Positions 23,870-43,875 of a stretch of 64,000 nucleotides of DNA are shown here, piece after piece. The DNA is from Prevotella sp. (GTDB taxonomy: Bacteria > Bacteroidota > Bacteroidia > Bacteroidales > Bacteroidaceae). How positions within the stretch are numbered: position 1 is the first letter of the stretch; each line of letters begins with the position of its first letter. The position numbers and the translations under genes are program-made. Location: positions 1 through 64,000 of the forward strand of contig JAFLSE010000007.1 of assembly GCA_022511075.1 (NCBI GenBank). Direction: 5' to 3'. Below the pieces are notes generated by a model. The model was not told where the DNA came from and ran no database searches. It saw only the letters and a list, made by a program, of their open reading frames with translations.

Positions 23870-25162
23870 TTATAATGCAATGCCTATTCTTATTCCCTGC
23901 TTGTGGGCAGTGGGGAGGTTGAGGTAGTTGAGGCGGCGGACATACTCAATGCTCATTATGCCGAGGATATTGCAGATGCCGGCGGAACATTCGAGATAGG
24001 GCTTTGTGCCGTCCATTTGGGAGATGTGGTAATTGTTTTTGTCGGACACCGTGCCCCATAGGGTGCGCACGCCGAGAAACTCGTGACAACCGAGTTGGCG
24101 CAAAAGGTTGATTTTGGAAAGGAACACTCCGCCAAGATCCCAGTTGAGCATAAGTTGCAGATAGCGGTCGTTGGCAAACTCGTAGTTGTTGATGAGCGAG
24201 AAGGTAGAGCATTCCGAGAAATATGACATATTGGCTGACGGGAAGCAGAGCAGCAGGAACGGTACGGCGTTCCACTGCGCAGCAGCTTGTGCATCTATGC
24301 CGAGTGAGCCGTGCCACAACGGCAACTTGTCTGAATATGAAAGTTCGGAAAGGTTGAAATCGTGCTCGCCTTTAAGGAAGCCTTTTATGCCAGTGCGATG
24401 GGAGAGTGAGACGACGGAATGCCTTGTGGGGCGTATCTCCGTTTGCAGGGCAATGTCGGCAGTATGAAATTCCACGCGCTCCCAGTTGCCTACGGTTGCA
24501 AGGCTGTTGGTGGTAAGTTGCAGACGATTTTTCAGATGCTTGTTCCATTCGTACTCTATGCTTGCCTGCTGGCGGTTGTAGCGCACAAACTGGTTTACGG
24601 AAGTCCAACGCAGTGATGTTAGCAGTCCTTCGTCAGAGGCTTTGCGTAATATCTCCGACGGCATCCCCAATTCGCGCATAGCAAGCCACGAAATGCTGCG
24701 CTGTGGATATTCGTCAGGGCGCTTTTGTTTTTTGTCGAATGTGTATGTAATTTGGCTGCTGAAATAGTTTTGCTTGCTCTTGAAACCTCGCGAGACATAT
24801 CCCTGCCAGAATAACTGTGGATGGAGATTTGCCGTAGAGCGACCGCCTATGCGTGTGCGTACCCCGTCTACGGAGTTGCGCATCAGCAGGCGTGTTATAG
24901 GACCAAATTCAAACTTGTCGCCGATTTTTAGATAGCGTATGTTTTCTGCAAGCTGCCGTTGTTGTTCTGCTATCAGCTGTTGCTGTGCTTTCAGCAGTGC
25001 AGCCATCTCACGTTCCATTTCCTTCTGTTCCTCGATGCGCAACATGGAGTCTACCACTGCCATATACTCGGCAAGGTTGGTGGTGTCGGGCTGCTGCGAT
25101 ATCTGGGCACTGACGGTGCAGGCAACAGCAAGCGCAAACACTATGCTCCCCAAGCGCCGCAT
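23870..25162 (-). CDS. DUF5686-like outer membrane barrel without N-terminal domain
   Basis: A 430-residue exported protein from the ATG at 25162 (signal MRRLGSIVFALAVACTVSAQ); the frame is open for 57 more codons upstream but these lie inside the CDP-alcohol transferase gene. After the signal comes a coiled-coil rich in Q and E (about 45-85: KEMEREMAALLKAQQQLIAE) and then a beta-barrel. The barrel is clearly related to the C-terminal half of the 853-residue DUF5686 protein in the same operon: both contain STANLHxxxFWxGY, KxYFS/YYSG, LWGTxxDKNN and end IEYVRRxNYLxLPT. It overlaps the upstream gene by 22 bp. Confidence 0.8.
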   Translation of the reverse strand: MRRLGSIVFALAVACTVSAQISQQPDTTNLAEYMAVVDSMLRIEEQKEMEREMAALLKAQQQLIAEQQRQLAENIRYLKIGDKFEFGPITRLLMRNSVDGVRTRIGGRSTANLHPQLFWQGYVSRGFKSKQNYFSSQITYTFDKKQKRPDEYPQRSISWLAMRELGMPSEILRKASDEGLLTSLRWTSVNQFVRYNRQQASIEYEWNKHLKNRLQLTTNSLATVGNWERVEFHTADIALQTEIRPTRHSVVSLSHRTGIKGFLKGEHDFNLSELSYSDKLPLWHGSLGIDAQAAAQWNAVPFLLLCFPSANMSYFSECSTFSLINNYEFANDRYLQLMLNWDLGGVFLSKINLLRQLGCHEFLGVRTLWGTVSDKNNYHISQMDGTKPYLECSAGICNILGIMSIEYVRRLNYLNLPTAHKQGIRIGIAL

Positions 25163-26118
25163 AGCATTTTCTCCTCCATTGTTTTGCAGAGGCGCTCGTG
25201 GGTGACGTGCATATAGGTGTATATGGCTGCAAACACGGTGACTTCCAAAAGCGGATAGAGCCACGGAATGTTGGCAAAGCAGGATATGTAGCAAACGATG
25301 GCACGCCAGTTGAACGTAAGCGCATTTGTCCACTTCATCAGCGGCAGCGAGCCACGACGGAACTCATTGCGCATAGCCTGCGGAATGTCGGCAGGGTTGG
25401 GATAGCGTTCCTTCACTGCCGCATAGAAGCTCTGGAACTGTGGCGTAGATTTCTCCTGCGCCAGACAATACACATAATAGTTGGCATAGAAAAGGTGCGC
25501 AAACCACTCCTTCGGCAGTTTCGGCAGACTGTCTTTCATTTCTTTCTGTGCCGTGGAGTTGTCGAGTTCGCTGCCTTCCTTGCCCAAAAGGAAAAACAGG
25601 TGTATCTGCCTGTAATAGTCGGAAAGGCGCGCCTGACTCATATGCATCAAGCCTGCCACGATGCACAGTGCCCAGCCATAATAGTGCGACTCATAGCCAA
25701 AAATAGTGATGGGCATATCCATCATACGGAAAGCCAAGCCGCAATAGATGAAGAAAAACCATACATCGCCGGCAAAGCCGTCGAGCACACGACCCATAAG
25801 CGACCTCTTGTTGTATATGCGTGCCATCTGTCCGTCGGTAGAGTCGCAGAAGTTGGCAAGCATAAGCAGTGCCATACCGCAAAGGTTGGATATTAAATCC
25901 TGAAAATAGAACATACAGCCGGCTGCAACGCCGAGTGCCATTCCCAATACCGTTATGACCGTGGGGTGTACGCCCATCTGTCCCCATAGCAGAGCGAAGG
26001 CAAGTCCTATTGGTCGGGTGAAATAAACGTCTATTGTCTCTTCGGTGTCATCGCTCTTGAACGATGCGCGCAGCAATTCGCGGAATGTCTTTCTCTCTCC
26101 GTTTATATTGAATGTCAT
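25141..26118 (-). CDS. CDP-alcohol phosphatidyltransferase family protein
   Basis: A 325-residue inner-membrane enzyme of the CDP-OH-P-transferase family, which exchanges CMP of a CDP-activated alcohol for an acceptor hydroxyl. The motif is present as D92-STD95-G-QMAR100, G109, D113 and D118. The spacing between the last two aspartates is four residues (DGFAGD), one more than the usual DxxxD. Membrane segments lie at about 38-72, 78-92, 118-138 and in the C-terminal third. The gene starts 4 bp after a nucleotidyltransferase gene and is in an operon with inositol-3-phosphate synthase, so the CDP-alcohol or acceptor is probably inositol based. Confidence 0.87.
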   Translation of the reverse strand: MTFNINGERKTFRELLRASFKSDDTEETIDVYFTRPIGLAFALLWGQMGVHPTVITVLGMALGVAAGCMFYFQDLISNLCGMALLMLANFCDSTDGQMARIYNKRSLMGRVLDGFAGDVWFFFIYCGLAFRMMDMPITIFGYESHYYGWALCIVAGLMHMSQARLSDYYRQIHLFFLLGKEGSELDNSTAQKEMKDSLPKLPKEWFAHLFYANYYVYCLAQEKSTPQFQSFYAAVKERYPNPADIPQAMRNEFRRGSLPLMKWTNALTFNWRAIVCYISCFANIPWLYPLLEVTVFAAIYTYMHVTHERLCKTMEEKMLCGAWGA

Positions 26119-26122
26119 ATCC

Positions 26123-26848
26123 CTATTTTAATGATAAAAACTTTTCTGCCTTTTCAATGTCGGTAGCGTGGTCAATGTCGAGCACCTTGCTGAACGGGTA
26201 TGCGTGCAGCTTCTGTCCGACGGCAACCAATGCACGTTGGAAATTGCGCATACGCGACTGTCCGTTCTCCATACAAAGTTGCAGCACACGCAGTGCCTTG
26301 TCGTTAAGTCCGTAGATGCCTGCGGATATGTATTGCGGATTGTCGCACGCATCGAGGAAAGCCGTTATGTTCATCTTGTCGTCCACCTGCACATACAGCG
26401 GTTTCTCATCGTCGATATAGTCGGTAACGCCCATCATTCCGTCAGACATTCCTGCCTCGGAAGCACGCACGAACATATCAATGTACTGACTGAACTCTTC
26501 TTCCCTGAAAATGGTATCTACCGTTGTGAGTACAAACGGAGAGCCTTCGAGATACTTGCTTATCTCAAAGAAACTATGCATTGAACTTGGCGTTGACTTT
26601 ACCACGAAGCGCAGGGGCACGGGACGACCGTTGAGTCCGTCGCGCTGCAACTCCACGAGATGACTGCTCACTAATGCCGTGAGGTCGTTGCAGATAACTA
26701 CAATCTCCTCAGCATAGTTGTCCATAAAAATCCTTATGAGACGGTCTATAAGCATCTCGCCGTCAACCTTTACGAGCGGCTTGGGAACATTTATGCCCTC
26801 CGCTGCCAAACGGCTGCCCTCACCGGCAGCAATCACTGCAAATTTCAT
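26123..26848 (-). CDS. Nucleotidyltransferase, candidate inositol-phosphate cytidylyltransferase
   Basis: A 241-residue cytoplasmic enzyme of the sugar-nucleotidyltransferase fold. The nucleotide loop is AAGEGSRL followed by PKPLVKVDG, and the metal site is in FVLTTVDTIF; a C-terminal ATDIEKAEKFL helix closes the domain. Members activate sugar or polyol phosphates with CTP, GTP or UTP. Gene order (inositol-3-phosphate synthase upstream, CDP-alcohol transferase 4 bp downstream) suggests CTP:inositol-phosphate cytidylyltransferase, comparable to the IPCT half of the fused IPCT-DIPPS enzymes. Substrate is inference from context. Confidence 0.8.
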   Translation of the reverse strand: MKFAVIAAGEGSRLAAEGINVPKPLVKVDGEMLIDRLIRIFMDNYAEEIVVICNDLTALVSSHLVELQRDGLNGRPVPLRFVVKSTPSSMHSFFEISKYLEGSPFVLTTVDTIFREEEFSQYIDMFVRASEAGMSDGMMGVTDYIDDEKPLYVQVDDKMNITAFLDACDNPQYISAGIYGLNDKALRVLQLCMENGQSRMRNFQRALVAVGQKLHAYPFSKVLDIDHATDIEKAEKFLSLK

Positions 26849-26892
26849 ATATTTGATTATTTAACCAATCACTGAACACTAAACACTGAACA

Positions 26893-29454
26893 CTAAAACG
26901 TCATTCTGAACATAAATCTTATGCCGTGCTTGTTTGATGTAGGCAAGTCGAGATAGTTCATACGGCGTACATATTCCACGTGGATTATCTTGAAAATGTT
27001 GTGAATACCTGCAATAAGCTCAACGTATGGGCGGTTCTTGTCCATCACGTAGCAGCCTTCGGGGAAATACATCAGTTCGCTGTCGCCGACATTCTCGGCA
27101 AGGAAAGGATTATTCTTATCGGTAAGTGTTCCCCACAGGCTCTTGATGCCGATATACTCACGCCATTTAAGTTTCTTAAGCAGCGGTATGCGGTTGAGAA
27201 TCTTTCCGTTCAAGTCCCAACTCATATCGAGCGAAACGTAGCGGTCGTTTAGGAACTCCATATTGTTCACGAGGTTGAAGGTCTCGTCTTCGATGATATA
27301 CGAAAGGTTTGCCGCCGGAGTGATGAGCAAGGGGTATGGTACTTTGTTCCATTGTGCGCCGCCCTTGATATATATGTCAATCTTTCCCCAGCTTTTCATC
27401 CAGAAGCGCTTGTACAGCTCAATGTCGGTCATATTGAAACTATACTCGCCGCCAAGCACGTTCTTCAAGCCCATCGTATGCCCAACGAGGAACACTGGTG
27501 CATCGAGGTTTATCTTCAGTCGTCTTTGCTTGGTGTTTATAAATGTCTCGCCCGGGGCTATGCGCAGTTGCACGTTTAGTTCCGTGGTGCGCAGCGTGCG
27601 CTTTGTGCGTGCCAACGGGTCGTTATAGTCAAGTCCGTTGTTCATATACAAGTAGCGCATTGCACCGCAAGGCTCGTTTTCCTCGAGCTTTATGCCTACG
27701 GTGGTCTTGAAGCCCCAGTCCTCTTCGCGCTCGTATTTCAGTTCCTGCCTGTTGTACCACATCATCTTGTCCACCGTAGCCCACTTGAATGCCGTGAACA
27801 TATTATCCTTGTCGGTATGTACAAACTTGTCGCTCGGCGAGCATACGTCGTATGTGGATGTGAGTGTAAGAGTGCGTTTAGGGAACTCTCGTGGCAGATA
27901 TTCCTTTTTGTTGAACGAATAGATGAGTGAGCCACTGTAGTAGTTTTTGTGGCTGCCCAAGGCGTATGCATAGTAGCCTGCCCAGAACCAATGTTTATGA
28001 AGATTGGCAGTGGATTGTGCCGATATACGCATACGATATCCGTCTACAAAGTTGTTACTTACAATAGTGTTCATAGGTCCCAAATCCACCTTGCTTGGGT
28101 TGCCTGTCTCCACAAAGTTCTCGATAAATGCTTTCAGTCCGAAGATTATGTATTTGAATCCCTTTATCTGCTCTAAGTTATGAACAAATGCGTCCATCGA
28201 ACTCTCGCCCTTCGTGAGATTCACCTGCCTGTATTGCGCCCAGAAGTCATCGTCGCGCATCATTGCGTCGGCTTCCTTCACCTCTTTTGCCTTACCCTTG
28301 AAGAGCTGTTTTGGCAATTCGTCAAAGGCATAGTCGGTAAGTCGCGTGGAACGTATCACGCAGCATTTCTGAATAAAACTCGCCAATTTCAGTTCCGCCA
28401 CCATATCGTCAACGGTAAGCACCCAAGTAGAGTCGGGCAGTTGTGTGAACTCCTGCAACACTTGCATATTCTCCACAAAGTTCACGTCGCTTTTCTTCGG
28501 TATAGTCAATTCGCAGCGCTTCACCTGATAGCTGCTGTCTGCCAGTATGTATATGTCGCCTCGGAAACCGAAGTCCTGTTGGTTGTTGGGCAGGAAATGC
28601 AGGTGTATGCACTTGTCCTTGTCAACCATCAGCGTGTCCTCTATATAAAAGCGATAGAACGATATTGCATCCTTGCCAATGGGCGAGGTAAACGGATATT
28701 GCAGCAAACGTATCTGGTCGTCGTAGATGTTCACGTCGGTAAACACGTCCTTCAATATCGTGGTCACTATGTCGCCAGTCTGGAACAAGTCGTTCACTCC
28801 CGACGAGTTCATACCCTTAACGATAGTTTTCTCGCTGTGCGGATTCTTGCGGTATATCTTCTGCGATACGGTCTCGTCAACCGATACAGGTAATATAAGT
28901 TTGCCCGTATACTCGCTTTTCTCCACTTGGTCTTTAAGCCACGGGCGTTTCTTGAATTTTTCGGAGTTGAGAGTATCATCGTTGATTTCGTTCATTGCGA
29001 GCGTAATCTTCTGATACTTGTTATATTGATAATAGTCGCGCGTTTCAAGGGCGGTGAGCTTCTTGTGCTCCACGACCTTTTTCATCAGTTCCACAGCGGG
29101 ATTGTTTTTGCGCGAATATCTCTGACGTTTCGACTTTATCGTAACTTCCTTCAGGTATTTGTTGTCGGGCTTCAGCTTAATGTCCACATTACCCCTCGTA
29201 CTTGTGGTAACGGTAATGGTCTTAGGCACATAGCCCACGGCACTGAACGTAAGTTGCCACCCCTCATAGCGTGATATTTTGTAGCGTCCGTTAATGTTGG
29301 CAACGGCGTTGATATTATGTCCCTTATACATCACAGTGGCAAAGGGAATGCTGTCGCCTGTCTCGGCATCAAGCACAATGCCCGTAATCTGTGCGCCGGC
29401 ATTGAGTGCGCACAGTACGAGCATCGTTAAGACTAATGTTATCCTTCTAAACAA
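26893..29454 (-). CDS. DUF5686 outer membrane protein with carboxypeptidase-like N-domain
   Basis: An 853-residue exported protein: signal peptide (1-21, ending NAGAQ), a carboxypeptidase-regulatory-like beta-sandwich (about 22-95, TGIVLDAETGDSIPFATVMY), a central alpha/beta region (about 110-420) and a C-terminal barrel ending in RFMFRMTF. This is the layout of DUF5686 proteins of Bacteroidetes, of unknown function. It is embedded in the inositol operon (23 bp after inositol-3-phosphate synthase), and a shorter paralog of its barrel half ends the operon. A role in moving or placing the lipid product at the outer membrane is possible but not shown. Confidence 0.85.
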   Translation of the reverse strand: MFRRITLVLTMLVLCALNAGAQITGIVLDAETGDSIPFATVMYKGHNINAVANINGRYKISRYEGWQLTFSAVGYVPKTITVTTSTRGNVDIKLKPDNKYLKEVTIKSKRQRYSRKNNPAVELMKKVVEHKKLTALETRDYYQYNKYQKITLAMNEINDDTLNSEKFKKRPWLKDQVEKSEYTGKLILPVSVDETVSQKIYRKNPHSEKTIVKGMNSSGVNDLFQTGDIVTTILKDVFTDVNIYDDQIRLLQYPFTSPIGKDAISFYRFYIEDTLMVDKDKCIHLHFLPNNQQDFGFRGDIYILADSSYQVKRCELTIPKKSDVNFVENMQVLQEFTQLPDSTWVLTVDDMVAELKLASFIQKCCVIRSTRLTDYAFDELPKQLFKGKAKEVKEADAMMRDDDFWAQYRQVNLTKGESSMDAFVHNLEQIKGFKYIIFGLKAFIENFVETGNPSKVDLGPMNTIVSNNFVDGYRMRISAQSTANLHKHWFWAGYYAYALGSHKNYYSGSLIYSFNKKEYLPREFPKRTLTLTSTYDVCSPSDKFVHTDKDNMFTAFKWATVDKMMWYNRQELKYEREEDWGFKTTVGIKLEENEPCGAMRYLYMNNGLDYNDPLARTKRTLRTTELNVQLRIAPGETFINTKQRRLKINLDAPVFLVGHTMGLKNVLGGEYSFNMTDIELYKRFWMKSWGKIDIYIKGGAQWNKVPYPLLITPAANLSYIIEDETFNLVNNMEFLNDRYVSLDMSWDLNGKILNRIPLLKKLKWREYIGIKSLWGTLTDKNNPFLAENVGDSELMYFPEGCYVMDKNRPYVELIAGIHNIFKIIHVEYVRRMNYLDLPTSNKHGIRFMFRMTF

Positions 29455-29477
29455 ATCAAATTGTATTTATAAAAAAA

Positions 29478-30806
29478 TCAATCTATTTCCTCGTCAGCCT
29501 CATAGCCGCCCATCTCGCGGATGGCGTTCTTCAGCATTGTGTACTGCTGATAGAGGTTGTTAACCGGCTCTTCACCCTGTGTATAGTCGTGCTGTGGCGA
29601 CTTCAGGAAGAAGCTCAGGAAGCGCTGTGTTCCATATTTGCCGGCACGTGCTGCAAGGTCGCTCAGCAAGCAAAGGTCGAGACAGAGCGGTGCAGCGAGG
29701 ATAGAGTCGCGGCAGAGGAAATTAATCTTTATCTGCATTGGATAGCCCATCCAACCGAAGATGTCGATGTTGTCCCAGCCTTCCTTGTTGTCGTTGCGTG
29801 GTGGATAGTAGTTTATGCGCACCTTGTGGAAATACTGTGTGTCTTCGTCGTTGCCGTGTCCGTAGAGGTCGGGCTGCAGTTCAGGCTTGAGGATAGTCTC
29901 CAGTGTTGAGAGCTTTGACACCTCCTTTGTGCGGAAGTTTGCAGGCTCGTCGAGCACAAGTCCGTCTCTGTTGCCAAGAATGTTTGTAGAGAACCAGCCG
30001 CTCAGTCCGAGGCAGCGAGTGCCGATGATTGGAGCAAAACCACTCTTCACGAGTGTCTGACCAGTCTTGAAGTCCTTACCTGCTATAGGCATCTGTGTCT
30101 TCTCTGCCAGTTCCCACATTGCAGGAATGTCAACAGTAGTGTTAGGAGCACCCATAATGAACGGAGCACCTTCCTCGAGCGCAGCCATGGCGTAGCACAT
30201 TGACGGTGCGATGTTCTCGCGGTCGTCTGCCTTCATTGCAGCCACGAGGTCGTCGAGCTTGTAGTGTACCTTCTCGCATACGGGCACGTAAATCTCGGTA
30301 GATGCAGCCCACAGTACAACGATGCGCGAACAGCCGTTGTCTGCCTTGAACTTGCGGATATCCTCACGAATCTGCTCCTTCATATCCCAGCGGTCCTTGC
30401 ACTCTTTCACGTTGTCGCCGTCGAGACGCTTTGCATAGTTCTTGTCGAAGGCAGCCTTCAATGGCACAATCTTCAACAGTTCTTCCTTTACAGGCTCAAT
30501 GTCCTTTTCTTTCAGCACCTCGGCATATATCGCAGCCTGATAGGCATTCTGCGGATAAACGTCCCAAGTTCCGAAAACAATGTCATCGAGCTTTGCCATA
30601 GGTACAATCTCGCTATATGGCAGATACTTTTTGTCAGCACCCTTGCCAACACGTATCTTGTCGTATTGTGTCATTGACCCGACTGGTTTTGTGAGTCCGC
30701 GGCGCGCCATAAGCACACCGGTCATAAAGGTTGTCGATACAGCACCGCAACCTACGACCATAATTCCTAATTTGCCGTCAGCTGGCTTTACGTTTGTTTG
30801 TTTCAT
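29478..30806 (-). CDS. Inositol-3-phosphate synthase
   Basis: A 442-residue NAD-dependent enzyme that converts glucose-6-phosphate into 1D-myo-inositol 3-phosphate. The Rossmann loop VVGCGAVSTTFMTG is at the N-terminus; KDFKTGQTLVKS, GWFSTNILGNRDG and the Lys-rich KINFLCRDSILAAPLCLDL carry the catalytic and dimer segments of the family. It is the bacterial/archaeal-like short type. It stands in the middle of an operon with HAD and ATP-grasp genes upstream and DUF5686, nucleotidyltransferase and CDP-alcohol transferase genes downstream. In Bacteroides an equivalent gene supplies inositol for inositol lipids. Confidence 0.93.
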   Translation of the reverse strand: MKQTNVKPADGKLGIMVVGCGAVSTTFMTGVLMARRGLTKPVGSMTQYDKIRVGKGADKKYLPYSEIVPMAKLDDIVFGTWDVYPQNAYQAAIYAEVLKEKDIEPVKEELLKIVPLKAAFDKNYAKRLDGDNVKECKDRWDMKEQIREDIRKFKADNGCSRIVVLWAASTEIYVPVCEKVHYKLDDLVAAMKADDRENIAPSMCYAMAALEEGAPFIMGAPNTTVDIPAMWELAEKTQMPIAGKDFKTGQTLVKSGFAPIIGTRCLGLSGWFSTNILGNRDGLVLDEPANFRTKEVSKLSTLETILKPELQPDLYGHGNDEDTQYFHKVRINYYPPRNDNKEGWDNIDIFGWMGYPMQIKINFLCRDSILAAPLCLDLCLLSDLAARAGKYGTQRFLSFFLKSPQHDYTQGEEPVNNLYQQYTMLKNAIREMGGYEADEEID

Positions 30807-30838
30807 TACTTTTTAAGTATGTAAATGTTATATTTTAA

Positions 30839-31540
30839 TTATTTTATTATCTCGTCCAATGTTTCTATTATGGCATCGGCGTGTGCGCCGTCGGGCTCAT
30901 CGTCGGTCCAGCCTTCGCCCTTTATCCATATTGTCTGGCAGCCGGCTTTCTTTGCCGGCTCAATGTCCTTATCGTAGCTGTCGCCGACAACCACGCATTC
31001 GTTTGCCTTCAGTCCGAGCGCCTCTACTCCGAGCGTGAATATGCGAGGGTCGGGCTTGCGTATGCCTACCACCGCGCTCTCTACAATGCTGTCGAACATT
31101 CCTGCAAAGCCCATTTCTTCGAGCACCGTAGCCACGTTGCCATAGAAGTTGCTTACCAATACCATTCTTTCGCCTTGCTCCTTCAACTGCTGCAAAACCT
31201 TTCGGCTCTCTGTCGTATAATGGCACGTCATTGCATATATGTCATCGAGCACCTTGCCGTGCCATTCGTCAACAGCGAAACCCGTCTGATGCTCCGCTAT
31301 GTATTCCATTTCAATGCGCAGTTTTGTGTCGAGTGTGCGGCGAAACGTGAAGTCGGGCATTATTATGCGGTTTTTGCCAAGTGTCCGCTCGGCGTGTACA
31401 TAACCTTCGCGAAACATCTCTTCCGTCACGGGCACTTGCTGTCTTTCGTATGCGTGCCACAGAGCTTTCCCCCAGTGCATGCCTCCCGTGTCGAGCGTGC
31501 CGCCGTAGTCGAATATATAGCCTTTTATGTTGTTCAGCAT
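30839..31540 (-). CDS. HAD family hydrolase
   Basis: A 233-residue HAD-IA type protein. Motif I is D11-Y-G13-G-T15 (FDYGGTLD), motif II VLVSNFYGN, motif III the Lys of IRKPDPRIF, and motif IV VVGDSYDKDI. The second acidic residue of motif I, usually the general acid/base, is replaced by glycine. Some active phosphatases such as YihX also have Gly there, so activity is not excluded. A phosphatase acting on inositol phosphate, or on the phosphatidylinositol phosphate intermediate, would suit this operon. It begins 5 bp after the ATP-grasp gene. Confidence 0.85.
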   Translation of the reverse strand: MLNNIKGYIFDYGGTLDTGGMHWGKALWHAYERQQVPVTEEMFREGYVHAERTLGKNRIIMPDFTFRRTLDTKLRIEMEYIAEHQTGFAVDEWHGKVLDDIYAMTCHYTTESRKVLQQLKEQGERMVLVSNFYGNVATVLEEMGFAGMFDSIVESAVVGIRKPDPRIFTLGVEALGLKANECVVVGDSYDKDIEPAKKAGCQTIWIKGEGWTDDEPDGAHADAIIETLDEIIK

Positions 31541-31545
31541 TGTTT

Positions 31546-32349
31546 CTATACATTATTTATAATATGCCGGCTTATTGCCATCGCAGCCTCTTCCCTGCAT
31601 CGTGAGAAACTCGGCCAGTCGTTCAGGTCTATCAGCACAGGCTGTCCTTCGCTCGTTATTATGCAGTCGCCACCATATATGCTTATGCCTGCTGCCGTGG
31701 CTGCCTTTTCTGCCATTTGTTGCAGTTCCGCCATAGAGAAGTCATAGTGGCAGGGCTTGCCGTTACGCTTTTCATCGTCAAACTTCCATTGCCCGTCGTC
31801 GCAGGGATAGTAAGTACGGAAGAATCCTTCGCCCACTACACCGTAGAATTTCACGAGGTCGCCGTCTATATGAGCCTGCACGATTGTTTCTATGCCTTGT
31901 TCTCTCATCTGCTCACGCCTGAGCAGCATTTCTTCCTTATCGGCAACATATTGCACGTCGGCACAGCTTTCTGCCACGCCTGTTGCGCGCTTCAGCCAGT
32001 AGCCTTTCGTGCCGTCTTTCGGGGGCAGTGGAATACCTATGCTTGCTAATCTTTCGTTCAGCATCTTCCTGTTGCAGCACAAGCTCACGCCGTCAGACTT
32101 GTTTATCACCACTTTCCCTTCTCGTTCCTGCCTATGCAGATGTTCGAGCGTCCGCGGCAATCTGCCCATAGAGATGTAAGCCTTTGCTTCGGTCTCCCAT
32201 GCCTCTTTCTCCTCGCTGACAATGCGCACTTTCAAGCCTTCGTCCGTCAGTAAACGACAAACACTCTCCAACACGGCTGCGTCTTTTTCCACCGAATTGG
32301 GAGAGTAGCGTTCGGCTCTGCCTATTGCCAATATATCAAGTTCTGACAC
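31546..32349 (-). CDS. ATP-grasp domain protein, possibly an inositol-phosphate kinase
   Basis: A 267-residue cytoplasmic protein and the first gene of the inositol operon. It has the ATP-grasp layout: Lys120 in GYWLKRA, the hinge IVQAHIDGD around 157-164, and the metal residues D228 (YGGDCII), D241 and N243 in VLIDLNDWPSF. RimK-like ligases and the inositol 5/6-kinases (ITPK) share this fold. The D-x-N-x-x-P-x-F end and the IVQxxIxGxxVKFYGVVG hinge remind me of ITPK, and the operon makes inositol phosphate. This is a hypothesis: a peptide ligase or carboxylate-amine ligase is equally possible from the fold alone. Confidence 0.7.
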   Translation of the reverse strand: MSELDILAIGRAERYSPNSVEKDAAVLESVCRLLTDEGLKVRIVSEEKEAWETEAKAYISMGRLPRTLEHLHRQEREGKVVINKSDGVSLCCNRKMLNERLASIGIPLPPKDGTKGYWLKRATGVAESCADVQYVADKEEMLLRREQMREQGIETIVQAHIDGDLVKFYGVVGEGFFRTYYPCDDGQWKFDDEKRNGKPCHYDFSMAELQQMAEKAATAAGISIYGGDCIITSEGQPVLIDLNDWPSFSRCREEAAMAISRHIINNV

Positions 32350-32673: not shown

Positions 32674-35600
32674 ATGAAGCATTTATTTCAAAAGAGGCTT
32701 GTATCGCTGTTTATGTTGTCATTGACAACTGTTGGTGCTGTGCTTGCAGCACCACGCACAGTGGAGCAGGCAAGGCAAGTTGCCAAGCAGCAAATTAGCA
32801 AGCATGCTGTAAAGAAAGTGAATGGGCAAGGTGGTGCGACAATCTCTGCTAATCCCCAGTTGGTGTTCTCAAAAAAGAAGCTGAATGCAACGGCTGATGA
32901 AGCCTATTATCATGTATTCTCTGCCGGTAAGAACCTTGGTTATACTATCGTGTCGGGCGACGACCGTTTCCCGGCAATCGTAGGTTATACCGAGCAAGGC
33001 GACTATGATGCAAACAACCTGCCTACAAACCTTGCCAGCTTTATGCAGGCGTATCAGGATTTTGTAGACAATGCCACAGAAGCACAGATTGCAGAAATAA
33101 ATGCGTGGAAGGCACAGGCAGCACATGCTTCTGTTGCACCTTTTATGCCAGAGAAATGGAATCAGGGTGACCCTTATAATAGAATGTGTCCTGAATATAA
33201 GTATAATAATTCTTCTAATGGTGGTATTTCCACAGGTAAGGCGGTAACAGGTTGTGTGGCTACAGCCGTTGCACAGATTTTGCACTTTCATAAATGTCCT
33301 AATGAGTTAAAAGCAGATATTCCTGAGTATAATTTTACATATACAGTTAATGATTACGAAAACCAATATAGTATGCCAGCAATTTATGCTAATGGGGAAA
33401 CATACGATTGGGGAAACATGCTAAACGTGTATACAGGAAATGCGACTGAAGTACAAAAAGATGCTGTTGCCAAATTGATGTTCCATATAGGTTGTGCTGT
33501 GAAAATGAAGTATGGTCCTTCATCAGGTTCAAGTGCTTCTGCTGAAACATTTACGAAATATTTTGGCATGGATAAAGAACTGGTAAAACAGCTTTATCGT
33601 TCTAATTATCAAATTTCAGAATGGGACAAGATTCTTTATGAAGAAATGGCAGCAGGACGTCCTGTTTATTATAATGGACAGTCAACAGGTGGTGGTCATG
33701 CTTTTGTTATCCATGGATATAATGACGGACTCTACTATGTGAATTGGGGTTGGGGAGGAATGTGTGATGGATATTTTGACATTACAATTCTTAATCCTGA
33801 TAACACCACAGGAGCTGGAGCTAGTTCTTCTGACGATGGTTATAGTATGTCTAATGGTATGATTATAGGTATTCAGCCAGATAATGGTGTTGTTGATGAG
33901 GTTCTCAGTCCTGTATTTACAGTACGTGATTTAAGTGTATCAGATTTGGCATTAAATGGAAATGTTACAGCTGAAGTACAATTTAAAGTTATTAATTTTA
34001 ATACTGTTAAAAATAGTAGATATGTAAGTGTAGGTTACAAAGATGAAAACGGGACAATATACAATATAGGCGGAGATGGTAGTTATATAACAATACAACA
34101 AGCAACAGATGATGGTAGGGGATATAGTCAAACGCCAAAGATAAACATTTCTTTTATGCCAGAAAATGGTAAGCTTTATGAATTGATAGCAATAGAAAGT
34201 CTTGATAAAGAGAAATGGGTTGCTTGTAGAAAAGAAAACAGTTACATTCCAAAGACAATTAAAGTAGAAAATGGAGAAGTTAATGAAGTTACACCTCAAT
34301 CAACTCTTTCTGCCAAGGCTGAGCTTGATGAAAATAGTGGCGGATATGCCACAATGAGCAATTCAATAAATGTCACTGTAACAAATACAGGAGACAAAGA
34401 GTATTATGACAAAGTTTATGTGTTTGTTAGTAATACTGATACAAAACCGAGTGGATATACATTTGCTCTTGGTATAACTGCACCTGTAGATGGAAGTACA
34501 ACATTTAACTTTGCATATACTCCTAAGACTGCAGGAACCTATAATTTCTGGATTTGGGATGTTGATAAAAATGAGATAGGTAAAAGCAGCATTGAATTTA
34601 AAGCGGCAGGTACACCTGTGCTTTCATTCGTTTCCATAACATGTGATAATGCTTCAAATGATAAAGAATACGCAAAATTCCAAACGACAGAAAATGTTGA
34701 AATGAATAAAGTGTATGACGTCAAGGCAGATTTCGTTTTTGAAGTAAAGAATGAAGGCGGTTATTATCAAGGTTCATTTATATTTGTGAAATATAATCCT
34801 TCTACAGGTGGGTGGTCTTATTCACCAAGTAGTGATGTAAAAACACTTACAGTTCCTGCCGAAACAACAACAAAATTTACTTTCTCTGTTGAAGGTAATG
34901 TAGGTGATGTTGTGGGAGTTAGAATGACTGGTAGTAATGGCGTGAGTATATCGCCATTAACGGGAGATATGATAAATCGCCATCAATCCAATAGTGGTAC
35001 ATATAATTTGAATAATAGTGAAATTTGTTATCTCGCAGGCTACAACACTGATAAGACATTGACAGTTACAGGTAGTTTGAGTGAAGATGATATTAAAGCA
35101 CTTAATAACAAGCTTGAGCATAATGATGTCATAACATCACTTGATTTAACGGAGGCAACAATTAATACAGAAACAGTACTTGAAACAGCCAATGATAATA
35201 CATTAATATTAATAGAGGCTGGAAGTAAGGTAGGAAACACAAAGAATGTCGTTGTGAAAAGTGGCAATAATTATACCTGCGCTAACTTTGAGTTGACAGA
35301 TGCAATGCCATTTAATACAGATATTCCATTTACTGCAGAAAATGCTTCATATACTCGTGTTGTTTCTAATGTAGCAACAAGAGCAGCTGGTGAAAATTGG
35401 TGTTCTGTATGTCTGCCGTATGTTGCAAATATTCCTGATGATGTTACGGTTGAGGCATTTACATCAGTTGATACTGATGCAAGAACAGTTACCTTTGAAC
35501 CTGTAACAACAATGGAAGCAAATATGCCTTATATCTATCAGGCTGCAGGTGAAGTTAAGTTTACTGCAAGTAATGTTGAAGTTAATAAAACGCCTGAAGA

Positions 35601-35934
35601 AATTAAGAAAGAATGTTTCATAGGAACATACGAAGGCATTCCTGCTCCAGGACTTGAAGGATTCTATATTTTGAAATCTGATGGAACAGGCTTTGGTATT
35701 GCTACAGCAACAGCTTATGCTGTTCCATTCCGTGCAGTTATTGATACGAAAGGACAGGCAAATACTGCTATGTTGACGGTTATTCACGGTGATGGAGATG
35801 GTACAACTGGAATAACAGAGGTAGGTACAGATGCAGATAATGCCGGCGATTATTATAATCTTAATGGTGTTAAAGTAACTACTCCGCAGAAGGGTATTTA
35901 TATCAAGAATGGTAAGAAATATATTTTTAAATAA
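32674..35934 (+). CDS. C10 family cysteine protease (streptopain/interpain-like)
   Basis: A 1086-residue secreted protease. Signal peptide at 1-25 (ending VLAA), an inhibitory Spi-like propeptide (about 26-150, GYTIVSGDDRFPAIVGYTEQG), then the catalytic domain with Cys194 in TGCVATAVAQ, His342 in GGGHAFVIHGY and the NWGWGG turn at 357-362. The C-terminal two thirds are beta-rich domains of unknown fold, and the end (YYNLNGVKVTTPQKGIYI) is the C-terminal module seen in two other genes of this window. The catalytic part is like interpain A and PrtT. Its gene is followed 20 bp later by a 53-residue peptide gene. Confidence 0.93.
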   Translation: MKHLFQKRLVSLFMLSLTTVGAVLAAPRTVEQARQVAKQQISKHAVKKVNGQGGATISANPQLVFSKKKLNATADEAYYHVFSAGKNLGYTIVSGDDRFPAIVGYTEQGDYDANNLPTNLASFMQAYQDFVDNATEAQIAEINAWKAQAAHASVAPFMPEKWNQGDPYNRMCPEYKYNNSSNGGISTGKAVTGCVATAVAQILHFHKCPNELKADIPEYNFTYTVNDYENQYSMPAIYANGETYDWGNMLNVYTGNATEVQKDAVAKLMFHIGCAVKMKYGPSSGSSASAETFTKYFGMDKELVKQLYRSNYQISEWDKILYEEMAAGRPVYYNGQSTGGGHAFVIHGYNDGLYYVNWGWGGMCDGYFDITILNPDNTTGAGASSSDDGYSMSNGMIIGIQPDNGVVDEVLSPVFTVRDLSVSDLALNGNVTAEVQFKVINFNTVKNSRYVSVGYKDENGTIYNIGGDGSYITIQQATDDGRGYSQTPKINISFMPENGKLYELIAIESLDKEKWVACRKENSYIPKTIKVENGEVNEVTPQSTLSAKAELDENSGGYATMSNSINVTVTNTGDKEYYDKVYVFVSNTDTKPSGYTFALGITAPVDGSTTFNFAYTPKTAGTYNFWIWDVDKNEIGKSSIEFKAAGTPVLSFVSITCDNASNDKEYAKFQTTENVEMNKVYDVKADFVFEVKNEGGYYQGSFIFVKYNPSTGGWSYSPSSDVKTLTVPAETTTKFTFSVEGNVGDVVGVRMTGSNGVSISPLTGDMINRHQSNSGTYNLNNSEICYLAGYNTDKTLTVTGSLSEDDIKALNNKLEHNDVITSLDLTEATINTETVLETANDNTLILIEAGSKVGNTKNVVVKSGNNYTCANFELTDAMPFNTDIPFTAENASYTRVVSNVATRAAGENWCSVCLPYVANIPDDVTVEAFTSVDTDARTVTFEPVTTMEANMPYIYQAAGEVKFTASNVEVNKTPEEIKKECFIGTYEGIPAPGLEGFYILKSDGTGFGIATATAYAVPFRAVIDTKGQANTAMLTVIHGDGDGTTGITEVGTDADNAGDYYNLNGVKVTTPQKGIYIKNGKKYIFK

Positions 35935-43352: not shown

Positions 43353-43425
43353 GCGGAAATAGCTCAGTTGGTAGAGCACAACCTTGCCAAGGTTGGGGTC
43401 GCGGGTCCGAGTCCCGTTTTCCGCT
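43353..43425 (+). tRNA. tRNA-Gly (GCC)
   Basis: 73 nt with a full cloverleaf: acceptor GCGGAAA pairs with TTTCCGC, discriminator T, D-arm AGCTCAGTTGGTAGAGC, anticodon loop with GCC, T-arm GCGGGTCCGAGTCCCGT. Identical in sequence to the fourth tRNA of the cluster. Confidence 0.97.
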
Positions 43426-43478
43426 CGATAAGATTGTGACAAAAGAGAGTATTGAAGGAATGTTTCTTCGAACTAAAA

Positions 43479-43560
43479 GCCCAGGTGGCGGAATTGGTAG
43501 ACGCGCACGTTTCAGGTGCGTGTGTCGAGAGGCGTGCAGGTTCGAGTCCTGTTCTGGGCA
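43479..43560 (+). tRNA. tRNA-Leu (CAG)
   Basis: 82 nt, class II with a long variable arm. Acceptor GCCCAGG pairs with TTCTGGGC, discriminator A. The anticodon stem CACGT/GCGTG encloses loop TTCAGGT, giving anticodon CAG. T-arm GCAGGTTCGAGTCCTGT. Confidence 0.95.
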
Positions 43561-43597
43561 CTCTTTTTTAGTCTTTTCGTAGTCAAGACAATTTGAT

Positions 43598-43681
43598 GGA
43601 GAGGTGGCGGAATTGGTAGACGCGCTACTTTGAGGGGGTAGTGTCAATTGTGACGTGGGAGTTCGAGTCTCCTTCTCTTCA
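43598..43681 (+). tRNA. tRNA-Leu (GAG)
   Basis: 84 nt, class II. Acceptor GGAGAGG pairs with TCTCTTC using G-T wobbles; discriminator A. Stem CTACT/GGTAG encloses TTGAGGG, giving anticodon GAG. T-arm GGGAGTTCGAGTCTCC. Confidence 0.94.
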
Positions 43682-43698
43682 CTTCAAATATTTGTTTT

Positions 43699-43771
43699 GC
43701 GGAAATAGCTCAGTTGGTAGAGCACAACCTTGCCAAGGTTGGGGTCGCGGGTCCGAGTCCCGTTTTCCGCT
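43699..43771 (+). tRNA. tRNA-Gly (GCC), second copy
   Basis: 73 nt, identical to the tRNA-Gly at 43353-43425. No poly-T hairpin terminator is evident after it. The 104 bp up to the next gene is AT-rich without other structure. Confidence 0.97.
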
Positions 43772-43875
43772 CTTTTGTTTATCAAATTAAATTTCAGTTT
43801 TTCTTAGGGGAGTCAATATGGAGCAACTTGGTGTTGCTGGTTGTTGCTATATTGAGCTTTATAAAAAATACAAAG

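Follow-up and report, generated by a model that had tools for sequence, protein, structure and literature searches.

We found that an ATP-grasp gene is a core member of a predicted inositol-lipid cluster of Prevotella, and that it keeps its place there in several families of the Bacteroidota and beyond the class. The gene stands first in a run of seven on the minus strand (23870-32349) of a stretch of 64,000 nucleotides, hereafter the window, from the Prevotella sp. contig JAFLSE010000007.1. The other six genes encode a HAD protein, inositol-3-phosphate synthase (MIPS), a long DUF5686 outer membrane protein, a nucleotidyltransferase, a CDP-alcohol phosphotransferase (CAPT) and a short DUF5686-type beta-barrel. 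Our preferred reading, put forward tentatively and from sequence, is that the operon would make inositol phospholipids or sphingolipids via CDP-inositol, with the ATP-grasp protein as a kinase that phosphorylates inositol before its activation by CTP. The cluster is real and has for the most part been published in outline, what is new being the ATP-grasp gene as a core member and its probable kinase step, together with the locus variants that support them.

An ATP-grasp gene at the core of the cluster

In a sample of 120 genomes of the same genus, the host's included, the ATP-grasp gene was found in 63, a class-A or intermediate CAPT in 68 (best match of at least 226 bits, matches of at most 217 bits being class B or background) and a MIPS match, fragments counted, in 76. 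ATP-grasp and this CAPT occurred together in 62 genomes, the former alone in one and the latter alone in six (Fisher 7e-26, the genomes not being independent). MIPS was present in 51 of the 63 carriers, and its co-occurrence, considered as the main linkage signal, was set aside as weaker than that of CAPT. Loci were taken from 60 of the carriers (all but G014, G043 and the genome of the window itself), and all 60 held at least one of the nucleotidyltransferase, CAPT, HAD and MIPS genes.

Together with 68 of 80 named loci and 23 from other Bacteroidales genera, these make up 151 distinct loci, after the removal from 163 of 12, all among the 80 named, that repeated an ATP-grasp sequence. Since the loci were selected by ATP-grasp the counts are conditional on it, and contig ends make them lower bounds. 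Within 9 kb of the ATP-grasp gene lay a HAD gene in 146 of the 151 loci, a nucleotidyltransferase gene in 136, CAPT in 135, DUF5686 in 111 and MIPS in 69, a gene set far beyond chance. DUF5686, tried as a core gene, is by this count a frequent neighbour instead; the original prediction had offered the barrel genes as new parts of the pathway, and DUF5686 is probably not new either (a BT_1527-like gene is described in the main text of PMC9246714).

The same arrangement was found at greater distances. An order-wide sample gave an ATP-grasp match, one of them weak, in 25 of 198 genomes, belonging to 20 of the 151 genera; among the 23 loci from other Bacteroidales genera, 20 held the nucleotidyltransferase, ATP-grasp, CAPT and HAD genes together and 19 held MIPS, usually in the order nucleotidyltransferase, ATP-grasp, CAPT, (LPG-TM), HAD, MIPS. 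Phylum-wide, 31 of 345 genomes had a match, 12 strong and 19 weak (E no better than 5e-9, the matched proteins being longer). Nine of the strong matches lie outside the class, and the six of their loci that were examined all contain the four enzyme genes, five of them with MIPS.

Gene fusions jointly connect these four enzymes. Across the 151 loci, ATP-grasp shares one open frame with HAD in eight, with the nucleotidyltransferase in five, and with the nucleotidyltransferase and CAPT in one (L204, 825 aa); CAPT is joined to HAD in seven, of which one, L116, is too short for trust, and LPG-TM to HAD in one. Another arrangement, an ATP-grasp, HAD and MIPS group with no nucleotidyltransferase or CAPT nearby, was present in 12 loci. 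The activation of heptose and of fucose offers well-known examples of a kinase fused to a nucleotidyltransferase. Synteny and fusions thus strongly support the earlier suggestion that the ATP-grasp protein is part of the pathway; the split of nucleotidyltransferase and CAPT into two genes is not unusual, a single open frame occurring in one locus of the 151.

The proposed route and what was known of it

A kinase, a HAD phosphatase and a nucleotidyltransferase together follow the logic of the ADP- and GDP-heptose pathways. Direct cytidylylation of inositol 3-phosphate would lead to a 3-linked headgroup, the mirror image of eukaryotic phosphatidylinositol; a swap of the phosphate would give the common 1D-1-linked headgroup and would permit the use of outside inositol. 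In the route that we propose, MIPS converts glucose 6-phosphate to 1D-myo-inositol 3-phosphate, as is the function of its family, the HAD protein would strip the phosphate to leave free inositol, which is the least certain step, and the ATP-grasp kinase would put a phosphate back at the symmetry-related 1-position. In an equivalent order the kinase would come first, giving the 1,3-bisphosphate, and the HAD protein afterwards. The nucleotidyltransferase would then form CDP-inositol, as in PMC9246714, and CAPT would transfer phosphoinositol to diacylglycerol or dihydroceramide; the DUF5686 proteins would act at the outer membrane.

Much of this outline goes back to Heaver 2022 (PMC9246714), whose main text describes an alternative cluster of a nucleotidyltransferase, a CDP-alcohol transferase and a HAD protein near MIPS, common in Prevotella and present also in B. 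vulgatus, and proposes for it a Kennedy-like route through CDP-inositol; its authors call the functions unconfirmed, and a 2023 review repeats the cluster as an in silico prediction in the part consulted (PMC10191378). According to the same main text, the MIPS homologue BT_1526 has been characterised, a homologue of the carboxypeptidase-regulatory-like BT_1527 lies near both cluster types, LPG-synthase-like genes are neighbours too, and a CAPT-HAD fusion is reported for P. veroralis. That cluster and the one in the window share MIPS, the nucleotidyltransferase, CAPT, HAD and a BT_1527-like gene, the identity of the last with DUF5686 being by description only; what we add is the ATP-grasp gene as core and, as described below, the absence of an Asp from the HAD protein, the loci of IspD type and the extended operons of distant genomes. 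The terms 'ATP-grasp' and 'DUF5686' are absent from the main text (figures and supplements were outside the scope). From its locus-tag numbering, and from a locus of another genus in the same family (L191), we infer that the unnamed B. vulgatus gene between the nucleotidyltransferase and the transferase is the ATP-grasp gene. No test of the alternative cluster, and no publication on its ATP-grasp protein, was found in the open-access literature without preprints, which is weak evidence, and a term search of the main text of a P. vulgatus transposon-sequencing paper (PMC13114119) returned neither 'inositol' nor related terms. The BT_1522-1526 cluster of B. thetaiotaomicron likewise begins at MIPS and ends in inositol lipids; it differs in its use of a phosphatidylinositol phosphate (PIP) synthase and a PIP phosphatase, and the host genome (98% complete) has no match to the BT_1523-type PIP synthase model NF052561 at E <= 0.001.

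CDP-inositol as the likely donor

That the operon works through a CDP-inositol donor is likely and the best reading of these genes; so far the original prediction stands, although the hypothesis had already been published. Curated models give no direct assignment, the nucleotidyltransferase scoring 34.9 bits against NF041135 (inositol-phosphate cytidylyltransferase, cut-off 580) and CAPT 18.2 bits against NF052561 (cut-off 350). Support comes from the six genomes of the genus that have a class-A CAPT and no ATP-grasp gene. In their five readable loci (L152-L156) CAPT lies beside DUF5686, and in two beside MIPS too. These loci contain no nucleotidyltransferase of the cluster type, no ATP-grasp gene and no HAD gene, and a gene for an IspD-family cytidylyltransferase is divergent from CAPT (assigned by Pfam on L152 and L153, the other three proteins being 73-80% identical to that of L152). 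The IspD family is CTP-specific, and the presence of its gene next to the same type of CAPT therefore supports CDP-inositol.

The CAPT sequences are consistent with donors of the CDP-headgroup kind. The motif DGQxAR...GRxxDG is common to class-A and class-B CAPTs and lacking in the BT_1523-type synthase (135 class-A, six class-B and two PIP synthase sequences compared). The class-B gene lies in L161 (8284-12100) with a HisC/CobD-like pyridoxal-phosphate (PLP) enzyme, an LPG-TM protein and a nucleotidyltransferase, in L160 with PLP-enzyme and LPG-TM genes and in L162 with an LPG-TM gene, which suggests a CDP-ethanolamine route for this module. It was also seen beside the inositol cluster in L203 and L205. 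A pair of nucleotidyltransferase and CDP-alcohol transferase working via CDP-inositol, as proposed here, is known from the archaeal IPCT/DIPPS system, for which both cluster proteins fall under the NCBIfam cut-off. The archaeal acceptor is an inositol phosphate and not a lipid, and we know of no kinase or HAD step in that system.

The HAD protein and a route without a kinase

The HAD proteins have an unusual active site. Of 147 sequences, nearly all have D[YF]G[GA]T[LI]D as motif I; the nucleophile D11 is kept in every one, and at the position of the usual acid/base Asp every one has Gly (G13), as do the six distant HADs that were read. Motifs II-IV (S/T130, K162, G186-D187, D192) are kept in 146. 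The DxD form of motif I that marks HAD phosphatases, with its second Asp as acid/base, is thus absent. An AlphaFold model (pLDDT 96) matches NANP, YfnB, haloacid dehalogenases and others in fold, with no substrate indicated. The gene also persists in all 12 carrier loci that have no MIPS. Because of the missing Asp and this persistence the protein is perhaps not a plain phosphatase; its reaction may differ from simple phosphatase action, which weighs against our reading and leaves room for the transferase role that Heaver 2022 gave it.

In that published proposal (main text of PMC9246714) the nucleotidyltransferase would act directly on the inositol phosphate made by MIPS, CAPT would join CDP-inositol and diacylglycerol into phosphatidylinositol (PI-DAG), which the HAD protein would convert to phosphoinositol-dihydroceramide (PI-DHC), leaving the ATP-grasp protein an accessory. 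We regard this as unlikely, if the best of the alternatives. A HAD protein without the acid/base Asp, at times fused to the membrane protein CAPT, could be an unusual transferase, and the IspD-type loci manage with neither ATP-grasp nor HAD in the locus. However, a protein encoded in 62 of the 68 genomes with CAPT, and fused in some loci to the nucleotidyltransferase, to HAD, or to the nucleotidyltransferase and CAPT, is hardly accessory, and 12 of the 63 carriers keep the set without MIPS. Moreover, HAD proteins as a rule act on phosphomonoesters.

Kinase or ligase

The ATP-grasp protein has no Pfam match over cut-off, and its AlphaFold model (pLDDT 94) fits solved ATP-grasp enzymes along its full length. 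Fold was considered as a way to settle between a kinase and a ligase and was given up, both kinds appearing among the structural matches. On balance, we consider that the protein is probably a kinase. A DxN motif, most commonly as IDxNDWPSF, is present in 150 of the 151 distinct loci and lines up with VDVNVFPSY, VDLNYLPSF and IDINAFPGY in the ITPKs of Entamoeba, Arabidopsis and human, respectively, whereas the ligase PsnB has ExN (ELN) at that position. Likewise Lys167 is invariant in two overlapping sets of 40 and 35 sequences, and PsnB has Arg there. According to the part of PMC4431377 consulted, ATP-grasp proteins carry ExN as standard, and peptide ligases typically have a conserved Arg in the strand concerned; in place of these two marks of RimK-type ligases the cluster protein has DxN and Lys167.

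The ITPKs, which share with the cluster protein the ATP-grasp fold and the motif DxNxxP[SG][FY], also supply, behind the single best one, six consecutive PDB profile matches with whole-sequence E values between 5e-5 and 6e-4, from three species. PF05770 (ITPK) is the Pfam family that matches most members, six of 40 at E up to 1, the best at 0.015 and under threshold; the window's own protein has no such match at E up to 1. Membership in the ITPK family was rejected, as none of the 40 exceeds the gathering score, and the resemblance lies mainly over the C-terminal third. Plant ITPK4 has an N-terminal HAD-like domain without some catalytic motifs (PMC7614388, in the part consulted), the opposite domain order to that of the eight bacterial ATP-grasp-HAD fusions. 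ITPK kinases are placed in eukaryotes and archaea in the part of PMC8024741 consulted, and we found no bacterial one in the open-access literature, preprints being outside the scope; a bacterial ITPK-like kinase would probably be new to the field.

Several results weigh against a kinase. The best PDB profile match is PsnB, a ligase (2.8e-6), matches of the family to the NCBIfam models of RimK and MptN reach 6e-9, RimK is the best structural match by VIA-align, and CDC123 has DxN as well (PMC4431377, in the part consulted). The resemblance to PsnB, RimK and MptN, along with a class-III aminotransferase gene in the distant operons, would suit a ligase attaching an amino acid to the headgroup or to a protein, an explanation that we find improbable. 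To the RimK model TIGR00768 the ATP-grasp proteins score 17 to 34 bits against a cut-off of 143.4. DxN and Lys in place of ExN and Arg speak against a ligase, B. vulgatus is reported to make PI-DHC in its plain form (main text of PMC9246714), and fusions to the nucleotidyltransferase would be left unexplained.

MIPS, activation modules and distant operons

The 76 genomes with MIPS fall largely into three modules. ATP-grasp is present in 51; among the 25 without it, 17 match the BT_1523-type PIP synthase at 226 bits or better and four are IspD-type (G022, G041, G051, G092), so that PIP synthase, nucleotidyltransferase with ATP-grasp and HAD, and IspD-type modules cover 72 of the 76, fragments included; in none of the three are G010 (a MIPS fragment), G068, G071 and G107. 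None of the 23 genomes with a strong PIP synthase match reaches the curated cut-off of NF052561. Conversely, the 12 carriers without a MIPS match, for example the single-contig G016, hold the whole set, and an inositol-using kinase fits for this reason. A match to PIP synthase occurs as well in four of the 12; the absence of MIPS is incompletely explained and counts against our reading. In two genomes without a MIPS match (G118 and G006) a BT_1523-type PIP synthase gene adjoins the ATP-grasp cluster (L043, L066), and in G258 (L202) an ATP-grasp gene of the same family lies near MIPS and PIP synthase genes, with no nucleotidyltransferase or CAPT in the locus.

A serine palmitoyltransferase gene is present in the host genome, its product matching solved bacterial enzymes at 1e-144, and inositol sphingolipids are therefore possible in this organism. 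This gene (G000:C24:38471-39592, L208) adjoins a divergent diacylglycerol-kinase-like gene. One PF14378 (PAP2) match over cut-off was found in the host genome.

In four distant genomes (G504, G468, G540, G448; loci L227-L230) an extended operon covers about 3-17 kb of each locus, with genes for the nucleotidyltransferase, an Mla-type transporter, one or two ATP-grasp proteins, a class-III aminotransferase, CAPT, an IolG-like dehydrogenase, LPG-TM, HAD and MIPS. The dehydrogenases are 45-49% identical to one another and have the inositol 2-dehydrogenase TIGR04380 as best NCBIfam model, at 68-80 bits and far under the cut-off of 355. A fifth locus, L231, has neither the aminotransferase nor the dehydrogenase gene, and an MlaE-type permease gene is present in all five. 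These four operons resemble streptidine-type inosamine synthesis, where oxidation, amination and phosphorylation start from free inositol, and an amino-inositol lipid pathway is possible; the dehydrogenase-like and aminotransferase enzymes would need free inositol and its later re-phosphorylation. The fuller proposal, in which an inositol kinase of ATP-grasp fold and an Asp-less HAD protein shift the phosphate of inositol 3-phosphate and the extended operon makes amino-inositol lipids, is speculative and more doubtful than our reading of the operon as a whole.

The least probable alternative, in which the kinase makes inositol 1,3-bisphosphate, which is cytidylylated and transferred, and the HAD protein removes the lipid 3-phosphate from a PIP-type intermediate, would account for the fusions of HAD to CAPT and to LPG-TM, both of them membrane proteins, and would end as BT_1525 does in B. 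thetaiotaomicron (main text of PMC9246714), but the ATP-grasp-HAD fusions and the 12 ATP-grasp, HAD and MIPS loci point to a soluble unit and the IolG-like gene fits free inositol.

Layout of the operon

The original prediction had described seven tightly packed, co-directional genes, and coordinates and spacing confirm this: from ATP-grasp onward the gaps are 5, 32, 23, 44 and 4 bp, and the final pair overlaps (Table 1). Its family assignments also stand, by Pfam and NCBIfam for all except the ATP-grasp protein, which is assigned by predicted fold. MIPS, a single copy in the host genome, matches PF07994 (4.4e-100), the HAD protein PF00702 (4e-21) and the nucleotidyltransferase PF00483 (1.2e-9); the long DUF5686 protein matches PF18939 at 7e-49 and the short barrel at 3.9e-11, most strongly along the C-terminal part of the profile. 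CAPT matches PF01066 over cut-off (5.1e-10), with the whole signature DxxDGxxARx8GxxxDxxxD, and is predicted to be an inositol-phospholipid or phosphoinositol-dihydroceramide synthase. For the short-barrel gene the most likely start is not at 25333 but at the ATG of position 25162, and its N-terminus resembles a signal peptide by eye.

Table 1. Genes of the operon in the window, in order from ATP-grasp onward.
Gene product	Position	Strand	Length and remarks
ATP-grasp protein	31546..32349	-	267 aa, GTG start; predicted inositol (phosphate) kinase
HAD-IA protein	30839..31540	-	233 aa, motif I DYGGTLD; predicted inositol-phosphate phosphatase or phosphotransferase
Inositol-3-phosphate synthase (MIPS)	29478..30806	-	442 aa
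DUF5686 outer membrane protein	26893..29454	-	853 aa, TTG start; CarboxypepD_reg-like N-terminus, BT_1527-like by description
Nucleotidyltransferase	26123..26848	-	241 aa; predicted CTP:inositol-phosphate cytidylyltransferase
CDP-alcohol phosphotransferase (CAPT)	25141..26118	-	325 aa, complete signature motif
Short DUF5686-type beta-barrel	23870..25162	-	430 aa; likely signal peptide; 22-bp overlap with CAPT gene

Upstream of the operon and divergent from it, the window holds an open reading frame of 1086 aa (32674-35934, plus strand) that matches PF01640 (Peptidase_C10, 2e-55) and PF13734, the latter as an inhibitor-like prodomain, and at 43353-43772 four consecutive tRNA genes, Gly-Leu-Leu-Gly.

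Significance

The inositol-lipid route of Prevotella and P. vulgatus has so far been a proposal only, to which the ATP-grasp gene is added as a candidate. If the phosphate is indeed moved before activation, the CDP-inositol lipids of the Bacteroidota would receive a headgroup of the eukaryotic type. In the distant families, if the amino-inositol variant is true, the operon, with its added inositol dehydrogenase, aminotransferase and sometimes a second ATP-grasp protein, would make amino-inositol lipids.

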